Below are positions 1,680-45,041 of a stretch of DNA of 49,299 nucleotides, piece after piece. Under the pieces are notes generated by a model that worked only from the letters and a program-made list of their open reading frames with translations, did no database searches and had not been told where the DNA came from. Origin of the DNA: a virus; the IMG/VR virus record IMGVR_UViG_3300036944_000737, positions 1-49,299 of that record; one strand, 5' to 3'. The first letter of the stretch is position 1. Each line of letters begins with the position of its first letter. Position numbers and translations under genes: made by a program.

Positions 1680-3902
1680 CTAGTCCTTTCGATACCGCTT
1701 GCCGCGCCAGCCGCCCGCAGCGATCGGCATCCCGTCGGCCCATGCCGGCAGATCGCAGATCAGACGCTCGAACTCGGCCAGATCGCCGAAGCCGCGGGGG
1801 ACCTCGCACAGCATTTCGTCGTAGGTGTGGAGAACGATGCGGTAGCCCGCGTCTTCCGCCCGAAACATGCCGTTCACCAGGACGTCTCGGGCAGTTGCCT
1901 GCGTGGCCGACTGCACCAGATCCCCGCCGTAGGTCTTCTTCTTGGTCCATTGCTTCGTCTTGGCGTCGACGCCCCAGAAGGAGATGGCCGGCGATGTGTC
2001 GCCCTGGATGGCGGCCTTGCCGGCGAGCTCCAGCCGCTCGGCGGCTTCGCGTTCCATGACCTCGGCATCCAGCAGATGACCGTTCGCGTCCTTTACCGAC
2101 ACCCACACCTGCGAAGACAGGGACGGCTTGGGGAAGCACAGGGCGCGCCCCGAGGGCAGCAGCACCCACAGATAGCCGAACCGCACCACGAAGCGGCAGC
2201 GGATCGCCTCGGTGACGTAGCCGGGGGCCTCGATCGCCTCGCGCGCGGCGCTCTCTGCATCGCGCCACGATTGAGCAATGGCCGAGTTCTGCGCCCGCCA
2301 ACCGCGCTTGATGGTCTCGCAGGCGATCCACGCATTACGCGAGATCGAGCGGGCACCGGACTGGTTCCGCGCGAAGCAGAACTCGTAACGTTTCGTCGCC
2401 TTTTCCTTGTCCTCGTCGGTGGCCGTCTCCCATACTGGCGCGTAGAGGCTATCCAGATCCACCCGGTAGTTGTGTGCCATCGTGACGAAGGCCGAAGCTC
2501 CACCTCCAAATCCAAGGCTCAATTCCGAGGTTTTGCCAATGGCTTGACGGGCCCAATGCTTTTTCGTCACCTCGCCGAGGGGCAGGCCGAGGATACGGGC
2601 GGCGGTCTGCCGGTAGAGGTCCGGGATGTTGTCCGGGTCGGCGAAGATGTCGCGGATCGCTTCCAGCTTCCATTCTTCCCGGGCGAGCCACGCGATGACC
2701 GAGCCCTCGATGTTGCTGTAGTCGGCCTGCACGAAATCGTGCCCGGGCGCGGCCCAGATGAAGCCCCGCACCGCATCCGACAGCAGATGCATCGGCCGGC
2801 CCAGCTTCGGCCCGTACAGGGCCTGCACGTAAGCCGGGTCAGCGGAGCGGATGGTGTCGAACAGCAGGGCGACGTCCAGCTTCGCGTCGTCGTATTCCTT
2901 TCGGGTTCTCGGCAGGTTCGACACGTTGACGCCGGTCGACGACCAGCGGCCGGTGTTCGCGCCGTGGTAGGTGTAGCAGCCCCGGACACGGCCATCGCAA
3001 CTGGCCCGGTCGAGGAAGCCCGCGATCTTCGTCACGGACGTCTTGCCGCCCTCGGCGCGCAGTTCCAGCACGCGCCGGACGTCCTCGGGCACGTCCTCCT
3101 TTGCCAGGGTGTCGGAGATCGTCGCCTTGTCGAGGCTGTCCAGAAACACGCCTCTGCTCTCGGCCCACGCCTTCAGCTTACCGACCTCGGAAACCCGGCG
3201 GACCTCGCCGTGCGTGGCCTCGCGGACGTCCTGGTCGATAAGGCCCTTGGCGCGCTCTGCCAGCGCCACAGCGGCACGGGCCGACGTGACGTCGATCCGC
3301 AGCCCGCGGTCGTTTATCGTCGCGTCCAGCATGGCGACCCGGCGCTCGGCGTCGGACAGCGGGACCAGCCGGGCGCGCGCCGCCCGCTCCACCTCGACGT
3401 CGGTCTTGCAGTAGGCCGCGAACAGGCCGAAATCGACGGGGTGATCTTCTGGCGCCTGAAAGGTCTTGTCCTTGGTCGGGATCGAGAACTTTCTGATCAG
3501 CCGCATCCCTTCCTTGTTCTTCTGCACGTCGAGCCCGAGCGCCGCCGCAGCCCGCCCCAGAGAGGCAGGGATGGCCATTGCGACGGCCATGTGCATGGTG
3601 TCGGACCATTGCTCCAGACGCGGCACCGGCCAGCCGTAGCGCGGCCCCAGGACGCGGTCGAACGCCAGCCGCTCGAAACCGCTGGCGTTCCAGCCGCTGA
3701 CGACCCCACCGGCGCGGATATGGGCCGCCAGAGCGGCCGGCATCGGATCACCGCGCAGCCAGGTCGACACCGGGCCGTCGCCGATCGCGTAGCAGGCGAT
3801 CAGCACGTCGGTCGACGGGTCTTCCCAATAGGCGTAGGAGCCGTGCTTCGGCAGGTCGATCAGCGATCTGGTCTCCAGATCGACATATGCGATGTCTGTC
3901 AT
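1680..3902 (-). CDS. Family A DNA polymerase with 3'-5' exonuclease domain
   Basis: Protein of 740 residues that replicates phage DNA. The N-terminal exonuclease shows Exo I (YVDLETRS, near residue 8), Exo II (WNASGFER) and Exo III (YCKTDVE). The polymerase half shows motif A (QADYSNIEGS, near 390), motif B (RQAIGKTSELSLGFGGG, near 455) and motif C (HTYDE, near 693, in place of the usual HDE). There is no 5'-3' exonuclease domain, as in many phage polymerases. The start has GAGG upstream and overlaps the dCMP deaminase stop by 4 bases. It is the last gene of the early minus-strand operon. Confidence 0.95.
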   Translation of the reverse strand: MTDIAYVDLETRSLIDLPKHGSYAYWEDPSTDVLIACYAIGDGPVSTWLRGDPMPAALAAHIRAGGVVSGWNASGFERLAFDRVLGPRYGWPVPRLEQWSDTMHMAVAMAIPASLGRAAAALGLDVQKNKEGMRLIRKFSIPTKDKTFQAPEDHPVDFGLFAAYCKTDVEVERAARARLVPLSDAERRVAMLDATINDRGLRIDVTSARAAVALAERAKGLIDQDVREATHGEVRRVSEVGKLKAWAESRGVFLDSLDKATISDTLAKEDVPEDVRRVLELRAEGGKTSVTKIAGFLDRASCDGRVRGCYTYHGANTGRWSSTGVNVSNLPRTRKEYDDAKLDVALLFDTIRSADPAYVQALYGPKLGRPMHLLSDAVRGFIWAAPGHDFVQADYSNIEGSVIAWLAREEWKLEAIRDIFADPDNIPDLYRQTAARILGLPLGEVTKKHWARQAIGKTSELSLGFGGGASAFVTMAHNYRVDLDSLYAPVWETATDEDKEKATKRYEFCFARNQSGARSISRNAWIACETIKRGWRAQNSAIAQSWRDAESAAREAIEAPGYVTEAIRCRFVVRFGYLWVLLPSGRALCFPKPSLSSQVWVSVKDANGHLLDAEVMEREAAERLELAGKAAIQGDTSPAISFWGVDAKTKQWTKKKTYGGDLVQSATQATARDVLVNGMFRAEDAGYRIVLHTYDEMLCEVPRGFGDLAEFERLICDLPAWADGMPIAAGGWRGKRYRKD

Positions 3903-4324
3903 GGCTCAATCCTCGAAACCTGCACGCCGGCCTCGGCTAACATGATGGCCGCCGCCTCGAACTCTTCGGCCGGCATGGATGTCTGGTTGGGGCCGTAGAT
4001 CACGGCCGCGACGCCCGCCTGGATCAGCGTTCGTGCGCAGCCGGAGCAACAGGCGTGCGTCGTGTAGACCGTGCAGCCCGCCGCCCGGATGCCCTCGCGC
4101 GCCGCGAAGGCGACAAGGTTGGCCTCGGCGTGGCTGGCGAACAGATATTTCGCCGGGCGCTCCCGGCGCTCCGGGGTGTCCTCGACGCCGCGCGGCGGCC
4201 CGTTGAAGGCGCAGAGCCGCACCTCCCGGTCGGGCCCGACCAGCACGGCGCCGACCTGCGTGGAGTCCTTGGACTTCAGCGCGGCATGGGCCGCAAAGCC
4301 ATAGAGATATGTCTGCCAATTCAT
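3899..4324 (-). CDS. Deoxycytidylate (dCMP) deaminase family protein
   Basis: Protein of 141 residues. The zinc-dependent deaminase signature is present: SHAEANL near residue 64 and CCSGC near residue 95, supplying one His, two Cys and the catalytic Glu. The family converts dCMP to dUMP and feeds dTMP synthesis. It overlaps the methyltransferase upstream (ATGA) and the polymerase downstream (ATGA), so the three are translationally coupled. No thymidylate synthase was found in the window. A broader cytidine-deaminase role cannot be excluded. Confidence 0.88.
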   Translation of the reverse strand: MNWQTYLYGFAAHAALKSKDSTQVGAVLVGPDREVRLCAFNGPPRGVEDTPERRERPAKYLFASHAEANLVAFAAREGIRAAGCTVYTTHACCSGCARTLIQAGVAAVIYGPNQTSMPAEEFEAAAIMLAEAGVQVSRIEP

Positions 4325-5484
4325 CCGAACGCCCCTGCACTGTCTTGCGCCATTTCCGACATCATCCGAACGCCGCTTGATCGGACGGCGGTTGTGAAGG
4401 CACGGATGAATTGCGCCGCGGCTTCCGGGTTGATGGCATTGCCGTAACCGCGCAGTCGTCCCATTCGGGCGGGTATCCCATGAGCCAACGGGAATGTGCC
4501 GGACTCAACTGGCCGCCATTTACCATCCCGGCAGAACAGCCAGTCAGGATCTCGCCAGAAGCTGTCAGGCGCATCGGCCCCGCGACCGTGCATAATCTGA
4601 CCGTCTGCCTGCTGCTGTCCGTGTTGCCCGCCGGGTTGTTGCCGTTCTGGGCTGGTGTTCCCGCCATTGGCGTCGGCCAACCCGCAAGCCCCGCCACCAG
4701 TCCGATCCGATCCGACCTGTTGCGCTCCGACCCGTCGGGGTTGATCCCGGTCGTGGCCATGCCCGGTGAGTCTTTCCAGTCGCGCGTTGTCGGCATCGGC
4801 CAACCGGCCACCGCAGATGCTTGGCTTAGATCCTGCGGCGACCCTTTGCGGCCTATTTCCGACAGCGACCCCTCGGCCGTTCTCACATTCTTCTCTCCGT
4901 CCGCTGCCCTTGACGTCGGCCAGCCGCTCCGCGGCGATGGCACCGAAGAAGGTTCGCTGTCGGATGTTCGGCGAGCCGACGCCCGCAGCCGGGATATCGC
5001 TCGCCCCGACGGTGTAACGTGCGGCTTCCAGCCGATCTGATAGATCGTCGAACCAAGCCCATGCAGGTTCTGCCGCAGCTCTGTTTCGAGCGCCGCTTGC
5101 AGCTTTTCCGAACACTTCCGCGCTGGCGACCTGTTCGCCAAACAGCATTCCGGGGCGAGCGGCCCCGACCAGGCTCGCAAATTTGGGGGAGAGATGTCTT
5201 GCATCGTTGCGGCCCTCCTGGCGGCCGGCGGGGCTGAAGGGTTGGCAGGGCGGCGACCCGGTCCAGACCGGCCGGTCGTCGGGCCAGCCTGCGCGCCGAA
5301 GCGCCCGCGACCAGCCACCGATCCCCGCGAAGAAATGACATTGCGTGAAGCCGCGAAGGTCGTCCGGCTGCACGTCGAGGATCGAGCGGCGGTCAACGAC
5401 ACCGGCGGCGATGTGGCCGCAGCGGATCAGTTCCTCCAGCCAGTCGCAGACCGCCGGATCGTTGTCGTTATACCAGGCCGTCAT
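4321..5484 (-). CDS. C5 cytosine-specific DNA methyltransferase
   Basis: Protein of 387 residues starting at [10 protein letters not shown]; the ATG overlaps the previous stop (ATGA) and the longer upstream frame is a shadow. Motifs: I (FFAGIGG, near 51), IV with catalytic Cys (PPCQPFS, near 80), VI-like GEQV (near 115), VIII (RQRTFF, near 175), and X-like GYGNAI (near 346). The 190-340 region is low-complexity and probably forms the target-recognition domain. It methylates cytosine in DNA, likely protecting phage DNA from host restriction. It ends in AFG-stop, and its last 12 residues ([12 protein letters not shown]) match those of the second methyltransferase (SEMTQDNKRAFG). A second recognisable frame overlaps it. 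Confidence 0.88.
4341..4361 (-). promoter_or_regulatory. 21-bp repeated element, copy a
   Basis: Read on the minus strand this is TGTCGGAAATGGCGCAAGAC plus a final A. It differs by one base from copies at 6389 and 43020 and shares its right half with one at 11887. The flanks form a TGTC/GACA dyad. Here it lies inside the 3' end of the methyltransferase gene, about 17 bases upstream of the dCMP deaminase start. Promoter element or operator is inference. Confidence 0.5.
4362..5204 (-). CDS. Overlapping second frame in the C5 methyltransferase gene (possible overprinted or frameshift product)
   Basis: A different minus-strand frame is open over the 3' 840 bases of the methyltransferase gene (280 residues from ATG at 5204; it stays open back to 5402). 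It is not random-looking: [32 protein letters not shown], repeated GWPTP/GWPMP units and [19 protein letters not shown] match a tail type I know from phage methylase-like proteins. The repeated LADA units of the main frame are the same DNA as the GWPTP units here. It also ends in AAFG-stop. Whether it is translated separately, by frameshifting, or is a relic is unknown. Confidence 0.4.
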
Positions 5485-44170: not shown

Positions 44171-44467
44171 TCATTCAATACACGGCCGACATGGCTTGTA
44201 GAGCCCGGCTTCGTGCCGCCGGACCAGGTGCAGTATCGTGGTGTGGTCACGGCCGCCCAGCAGACGCCCGATCACCGGCAGCGACATGCCGTTGCGGTGC
44301 ATGGCCGTCGCGAGCTCGGCGCGCGGGATGGTCGTGCGGCGGGTGCGGTCGCGGCCCGTGAGATCCGATAGCTTCAGCCCGGCGCGGTCGGCTATGCGAA
44401 GGCCCTCGCGCGCCCAGATGAACCGATCCGGGCGGACGGCGGCGATCAGCCTCGGGCGGGAAGTCAT
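44171..44467 (-). CDS. DnaA domain IV-like DNA-binding protein
   Basis: 98 residues from MTSRPRLIAAVRPD. C-terminal part MSLPVIGRLLGGRDHTTILHLVRRH is the DnaA signature (GGRDHTT), which contacts DnaA boxes. No ATPase domain, so it is a stand-alone DNA-binding module. It could bind an origin or interfere with host DnaA. ATGA overlap with upstream Lar-like gene. Confidence 0.8.
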   Translation of the reverse strand: MTSRPRLIAAVRPDRFIWAREGLRIADRAGLKLSDLTGRDRTRRTTIPRAELATAMHRNGMSLPVIGRLLGGRDHTTILHLVRRHEAGLYKPCRPCIE

Positions 44468-44853
44468 GACTTGGCCCCTTCGGCTGTGCGGTAGGCGCCG
44501 ATCTGCTCGCACGACTTCATCGCCCGGTCCCGTTCCAGCTTGACGATGCGCAGTTCTTGATGCGCCTGCACTAGCTTGACGCGCGCCTCGATCAACTCGT
44601 CTGCCGCCCAATCATCTGCCCGCGTGTTCCAGAACGTGGTGACGCTCACCAGACATGCGGCGTCGTCCTCGTGTTCGTCAGCCTGTTCGGTCCAAGATGG
44701 CGACGGGCATTCGCCGTCCCGCGAACAGGACACGCGCAGGCTCTTGCCCCCATGCCCGTTGTGGATGGCATGGTCACTCAGCACCCATTTCAGGAGCGCA
44801 TCCGCGCCGCAGAACGGGCATAGTTTTAGTTCGATCATGTCGATCATCCCCAT
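44464..44853 (-). CDS. Lar-like zinc-ribbon protein (restriction alleviation family)
   Basis: 129 residues. KLCPFCGADALLKW, RVSCSRDGECPSPSW and VTTFWNTRADDW give the Lar pattern CxxC...C...C...WN-R. The family includes Rac-prophage Lar, which modulates type I restriction. C-terminal helix is extra. AGGAGG before ATG. Confidence 0.72.
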   Translation of the reverse strand: MGMIDMIELKLCPFCGADALLKWVLSDHAIHNGHGGKSLRVSCSRDGECPSPSWTEQADEHEDDAACLVSVTTFWNTRADDWAADELIEARVKLVQAHQELRIVKLERDRAMKSCEQIGAYRTAEGAKS

Positions 44854-45041
44854 GTCGTCGCCTCCTGTGCTGAGCCGGCCATGCTCACCGCCCCATGCAG
44901 CGGGCAATCGCTGTGCTGCCACCAGCCGTATTTGTCGCCATCGCCGCCCATACCGGCGCCGTGGTGGTTGTCCAACACCGGGCATGTGCAGCCGCGCTGG
45001 ACCGCATCGGGTGAGCCGGGGCGCGGGCGGGCGTCACCCAC
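44844..45041 (-). CDS. Small Cys/His-rich phage protein
   Basis: 65 residues from GTG with GGAGG upstream. GCTCPVLDNHHGAGMGG and WWQHSDCPLHG are typical of a frequent phage protein with CxC...CPLH, probably metal-binding. Ends TTWG. Function unknown. Confidence 0.65.
   Translation of the reverse strand: MGDARPRPGSPDAVQRGCTCPVLDNHHGAGMGGDGDKYGWWQHSDCPLHGAVSMAGSAQEATTWG

Follow-up and report, generated by a model that had tools for sequence, protein, structure and literature searches.

Two overlapping frames in one methyltransferase gene

Does a viral C5-cytosine methyltransferase gene that is open in two frames encode one protein or two? The gene lies on the minus strand of a 49,299-nucleotide viral sequence, IMG/VR record IMGVR_UViG_3300036944_000737, the whole of which we refer to as the window. 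Frame A spans 4321..5484 and encodes a protein of 387 residues. Frame B lies on the same strand in the +1 frame relative to A, is open from 4362 to 5402, and has its strongest start at ATG 5204, giving a nested gene of 280 residues (4362..5204). An earlier, sequence-only reading had suggested that the two frames reflect either overprinting or frameshift-generated isoforms with alternative target-recognition ends, and had proposed searching both translations and examining synonymous constraint across homologues. Both frames are open as it described, and the B protein strings that it quoted are present in the B translation.

Frame A forms ATGA-type overlaps with both the preceding and the following gene. 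A dCMP/cytidine deaminase-like gene (3899-4324, minus strand) begins on the last bases of A and is followed by a family A DNA polymerase-like gene (1680-3902). As had been noted, 41 nt separate the stops of A and B and the two proteins share the ending AFG, but this shared ending does not belong to the two-frame signal. It derives from a repeated 9-mer, TTCGGATGA, which occurs on the minus strand at 4321, 4362, 5481, 12213 and 12638, five times in the window against 0.47 expected. Because it coincides with gene ends at 4321 and 5481, where the ATGA-type overlaps lie, and with the end of B at 4362, it may be a recurring gene-junction sequence. Further along the window, 44464-44985 (minus strand) weakly resembles the restriction alleviation protein Lar, scoring 23.4 bits where the Pfam cut-off is 28.6.

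Frame A encodes a C5-cytosine methyltransferase

Searches with the A translation identify it as a C5-cytosine methyltransferase, and we read it as the catalytic (alpha) subunit. It matches the catalytic domain PF00145 above threshold (E 2.4e-8, 34.2 bits, cut-off 22) and phrog_363 (E 1.3e-66), and its profile aligns with M.HhaI (E 6e-16). Motif I (FFAGIGG, 5314..5334) agrees with the family consensus, and the M.HhaI alignment places motif IV with the catalytic cysteine (GSPPCQPF) at 5236..5259 and the motif VIII region (IRQRT) at 4951..4965. Motif VI, at 5128..5139, reads GEQV in place of the usual ENV, so that the glutamate is retained in a motif that otherwise departs from the C5-cytosine methyltransferase pattern. 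Residues E117, Q118 and V119 (5128-5136) are invariant across the aligned viral relatives, while the Paenibacillus and actinophage relatives keep ENV. Motif X (YGNAI, 4432..4446) contains the invariant residues Y347, G348 and N349. No motif IX block was recognised in A, and the recognition region and motif IX are not found in this same chain.

The AlphaFold2 model of A is mostly confident for residues 1-195, the catalytic core, and for residues 353-385, which form a C-terminal helix just after motif X. Residues 203-313 (4546..4878), which overlie the repeated units of B described below, are predicted to be disordered, with pLDDT values of about 31-36. In a Foldseek search with A, the highest-ranked structure is a carboxymethyltransferase (8yf3). 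The scores of other C5 methyltransferases are about equal and the motif X asparagine is retained, so we claim no altered chemistry for A.

Both frames are under purifying selection

A second open frame in a gene of this kind could be a shadow, an open +1 frame that is matched in databases through the conserved real frame. The region is GC-rich, the second codon base of B is the third of A, and GenBank annotation varies, with several records showing only one of the two frames; others annotate both, so the B open reading frame is not in itself new. We gathered homologous loci in three ways, from viral contigs by B, from viral contigs by A, and from bacterial genomes with a B profile, and compared them with a null model in which A's synonymous codons are permuted and the A protein is kept. 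The third frame served as a control. Because the loci share ancestry, the following counts measure an effect and should not be taken as independent trials: B contains 4 stops against 181 expected across 80 loci (third frame, 713 against 661), none against 163.5 across 58 loci picked by A only (third frame, 553 against 498), and 1 against 132 across 65 bacterial loci (third frame, 514 against 432). Stops are therefore strongly depleted from B, and the third frame shows no depletion in any of the three sets.

The B protein is also better conserved than its position would require, with 47.0% identity between loci compared with 27.5% expected from A alone. The third frame likewise exceeds its own null in this identity test, since its bases are common to B, and it is the stop counts that separate the two. 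At residues shared between A proteins, the same codon is used at a rate of 0.702 within the overlap (0.383 expected) and 0.468 before it (0.411 expected). Synonymous constraint in A stays close to background up to residue 82, starts sharply there, remains strong to about residue 345, and fades thereafter as B comes to its end. Between A residues 181 and 280, identity is 23-24% for A and 29-35% for B, and A therefore looks like the passive frame in this stretch.

Stop depletion in loci selected without reference to B, identity well above the expectation from A, and constraint limited to the overlap all speak against a shadow. So do the identical nesting in Paenibacillus phages at 47% GC and the actinophage relatives of B that lie in frame with a catalytic domain. 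We consider a shadow frame extremely improbable and dual coding of A and B close to certain. There is strong support for purifying selection on both frames, and the outcome that the sequence-only reading had named as its own undoing, in which one frame is selected and matches to the other are mis-annotated shadows, is not what the homologues show. Its suggestion of overprinting holds.

Frame B has its own initiation signals

The other suggestion, of isoforms generated by frameshifting, turns on how B is translated. In this scheme a programmed +1 shift would fuse the N-terminal part of A with B and so give an isoform with an alternative end. A Shine-Dalgarno sequence, AGGAGG (5214..5219, minus strand), lies 9 nt before the B start at ATG 5204, and such pairs of Shine-Dalgarno sequence and start codon in the B frame are enriched across loci at two places. 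The downstream site, at A codons 91-96, is present in 60 of 75 loci, where 26.6 are expected, and in 60 of 76 in a slightly larger count, where 26.5 are expected. The upstream site, at A codons 35-44, is present in 49 of 75 loci (12.1 expected) and often reads GAAAGGAGTATTGAGGATG. Its Shine-Dalgarno sequence draws on a rare arginine codon: AGG encodes A residue Arg33 in 25 of 74 cases, compared with 12 of 352 elsewhere in A residues 1-80. At least one of the two sites is found in 70 of 75 loci; the window has the downstream site only. The remaining 5 of 75 have neither, and initiation of B is therefore not uniform.

Depletion of stops from B begins at about A residue 41. Over A codons 41-80 (about 5245-5364), B is nearly stop-free, though its residues there are unconstrained beyond what A imposes, and the upstream start is the likely reason. 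A frameshift could draw on synonymous constraint that sets in about 12 codons ahead of the downstream B start, on the five loci that lack both sites, and on an alphaproteobacterial metagenome-assembled genome in which the A N-terminus and B share one reading frame (locus L147, 2209-3663). That single frame is either a natural fusion or a sequencing or assembly indel. Enrichment of initiation sites at two places and the AGG codon at Arg33 argue the other way, the open stretch of B up to about A residue 41 fits an upstream start instead, and motifs VI and VIII would be missing from any fusion made at residue 82. Given initiation signals at both sites and an open frame that fits the upstream one, a programmed frameshift is not needed, and we judge it very unlikely. 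The proposed isoforms are accordingly disfavoured, as B has internal ribosome-binding sites of its own.

Searches for regulatory RNA structure gave no candidates that held up. A potential hairpin (CCUUU/AAAGG) that would sequester the Shine-Dalgarno sequence before the downstream B start shows no covariation (mean longest helix 5.30, compared with 5.45 for swapped partners) and no unusual folding (z 0.11). No known RNA element was found in the A/B region at Rfam gathering thresholds.

The nested frame resembles a recognition region with motif IX

The B translation matches phrog_31772 (E 4e-35) and phrog_1008 (E 4.3e-28), both labelled DNA methyltransferase, and has no convincing match in Pfam or the PDB. 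Its conserved N-terminal core (residues 31-82, 4959..5114) contains the invariant columns G51, W59 and L73 and is the best-predicted part of the protein. Modelled alone, B is predicted with low confidence (pLDDT 62, pTM 0.29), which would be expected of an obligate partner but lends no support in itself.

The central part of B is an array of cassettes. Most B proteins carry two to five units that open with GWPTP or a similar sequence, and those of the window occur in the family order 10-1-2. Cassette 1 (4806..4925) belongs to family 10, which has 9 members with differing positions, and the A sequence over it reads LADVKG. Cassette 2 (4683..4805) belongs to family 1 (39 members) beneath LADADN, and cassette 3 (4581..4682) to family 2 (38 members) beneath LADANGG. 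The sequence-only reading had described a repeated DNA that gives LADA in one frame and GWPTP in the other. The exact 12-mer CTGGCCGACGCC is absent from the gene, but three near-variants, at 4669, 4792 and 4912, mark the three cassettes; A reads them as LADA, LADA and LADV, and B as GWPTP, GWPMP and GWPTS. Across 169 B proteins we count 476 units in 145 families and 132 distinct arrangements, with 17 family pairs found in both orders. These counts come from a repeated clustering, a shared C-terminal segment having merged units in the initial run. From their position between motifs VIII and IX, we infer that the cassettes are target readers and that each may read a DNA target.

Beyond the cassettes lies a motif IX-like block (4458..4508), which aligns with LNPAFPEWMMGWPTGWV of single-chain actinophage methyltransferases (hhalign E 1.6e-5); the match to the single-chain profile is restricted to 19 motif IX columns. 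B also matches the nested B of Paenibacillus phages (hhalign 2.8e-14) and Camperdownii gp75 (hhalign 4e-8), which comprises a recognition region followed by motifs IX and X. B is homologous to the recognition and motif IX region of single-chain enzymes, and it is very probably the chain that carries both. The earlier link to target recognition was right, and B is better read as a second, specificity or motif IX (beta) subunit.

Relatives with fused, staggered and nested layouts

In all 80 bacterial loci retrieved with the B profile, A is found overlying B; in one of them, L147, the two share a single ORF. The same nesting occurs in Paenibacillus phage Tadhana (47% GC), where both genes are annotated and B contains no stops against 7.6 expected. 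Among related actinophages, the A and B parts are either fused or encoded by staggered overlapping genes (Camperdownii gp76/gp75 and loci L277, L280 and L281). Mycobacterium phage WillSterrel gp71 is a single chain that matches phrog_363 along its length (2e-72) and phrog_1008 over residues 194-390 (1e-57). In the staggered pairs, motifs I-VIII lie on the first chain, and the recognition region, motif IX and motif X, where detected, on the second. In a human-gut phage fragment (L252, 2-839), A-like and B-like frames overlap in the +1 relation and A stops early.

These layouts bear on whether B, though translated, might be a separate protein derived from a recognition region, such as a methyltransferase competitor or regulator or an antirestriction factor. 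The lack of a convincing Pfam or PDB match for B alone would suit such a protein. A, however, has no recognisable motif IX or ordered recognition region, B has exactly these, and the fused and staggered relatives show both parts as one enzyme. A separate function for B is therefore improbable.

A probable split enzyme encoded by one message

Our preferred reading, to which we assign a probability of roughly 0.83, is that both chains of a split C5-cytosine methyltransferase are translated from a single minus-strand message. The chain made from frame A would be the catalytic one, with the SAM-binding core, the motif IV cysteine, motif VIII and the helix of motif X. Ribosomes that initiate inside A, at the AGGAGG-ATG (5204), would make B, and with it the parts missing from A, namely motif IX and a series of GWPTP-type recognition cassettes. 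Together the chains may then form an obligate heterodimer, a single enzyme whose cytosine methylation of phage DNA is directed to the targets that the B cassettes specify. Such methylation would most simply shield the phage DNA from host restriction.

A wider proposal, which we hold at slightly less than even odds, is that this is a large phage methyltransferase family whose specificity array is encoded wholly within its own catalytic gene, in the +1 frame. Shuffling of the cassettes by recombination would rewrite B specificity, the overlying A would serve as a tolerant disordered linker, and the single-chain, staggered and nested layouts would be states of one evolving system. If this is true, nesting allows target specificity to change while the catalytic chain stays unbroken.

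Long, fully nested same-strand genes are seldom proven in tailed phages. Here, the selection tests show some 270 codons to be double-coded in phages and prophages of Alpha-, Beta- and Gammaproteobacteria, and Paenibacillus phages have the same layout. Phage annotation, which frequently shows only one frame, should call both genes. Where such a 'methylase' is cloned for activity, the B frame must stay intact, since recoding A for expression silently destroys B. The shuffled cassettes offer a natural parts set for studying target choice by C5 methyltransferases.

Comparison with known methyltransferases

The multispecific C5 methyltransferases of Bacillus phages SPR and phi3T carry small recognition units in series between motifs VIII and IX. 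The window likewise has several small units in series between these motifs, but the SPR and phi3T enzymes are single chains, whereas the units here lie in a nested +1 frame and would act as separate target readers. Single-chain enzymes of the WillSterrel gp71 type share both families with the window, a phrog_363 catalytic part and a phrog_1008 recognition and motif IX part, and differ in having every part in one frame and one chain. M.AquI, which methylates CYCGRG, is a C5 methyltransferase naturally split into two polypeptides (PMC3404938). The staggered actinophage pairs match the M.AquI layout; in the window, B is instead fully nested and motif X remains on the catalytic chain.

We found no report of nested methyltransferase subunits in phages in the literature searched, a weak negative given that most subscription papers lay outside the search. 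Within that searchable literature, two things look new: how widely the dual coding extends, and an array of shuffled cassettes located in a nested frame.

A close parallel in layout is M.EcoHK31I, a two-polypeptide C5 methyltransferase for YGGCCR, as is M.EaeI. Lee, Kam and Shaw are said to have found in 1995 that the M.EcoHK31I small-chain gene lies inside the large-chain gene in another frame, and that both proteins are required in vitro. In the window, too, the second gene sits within the catalytic gene and is read in a different frame. The large chain of M.EcoHK31I holds motifs I-VIII and X together with the predicted recognition domain, and the small chain holds motif IX (PMC3404938). Correspondingly, A has motifs I, IV, VI (as EQV), VIII and X and B a IX-like block, but in the window the whole recognition cassette array is apparently in the small chain, B. 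The settings also differ, as M.EcoHK31I belongs to a restriction-modification system and the genes described here are found in phages and prophages. Compared by layout and motif distribution rather than by sequence, the best reading is that the A and B chains of the window would work together as those of M.EcoHK31I do.
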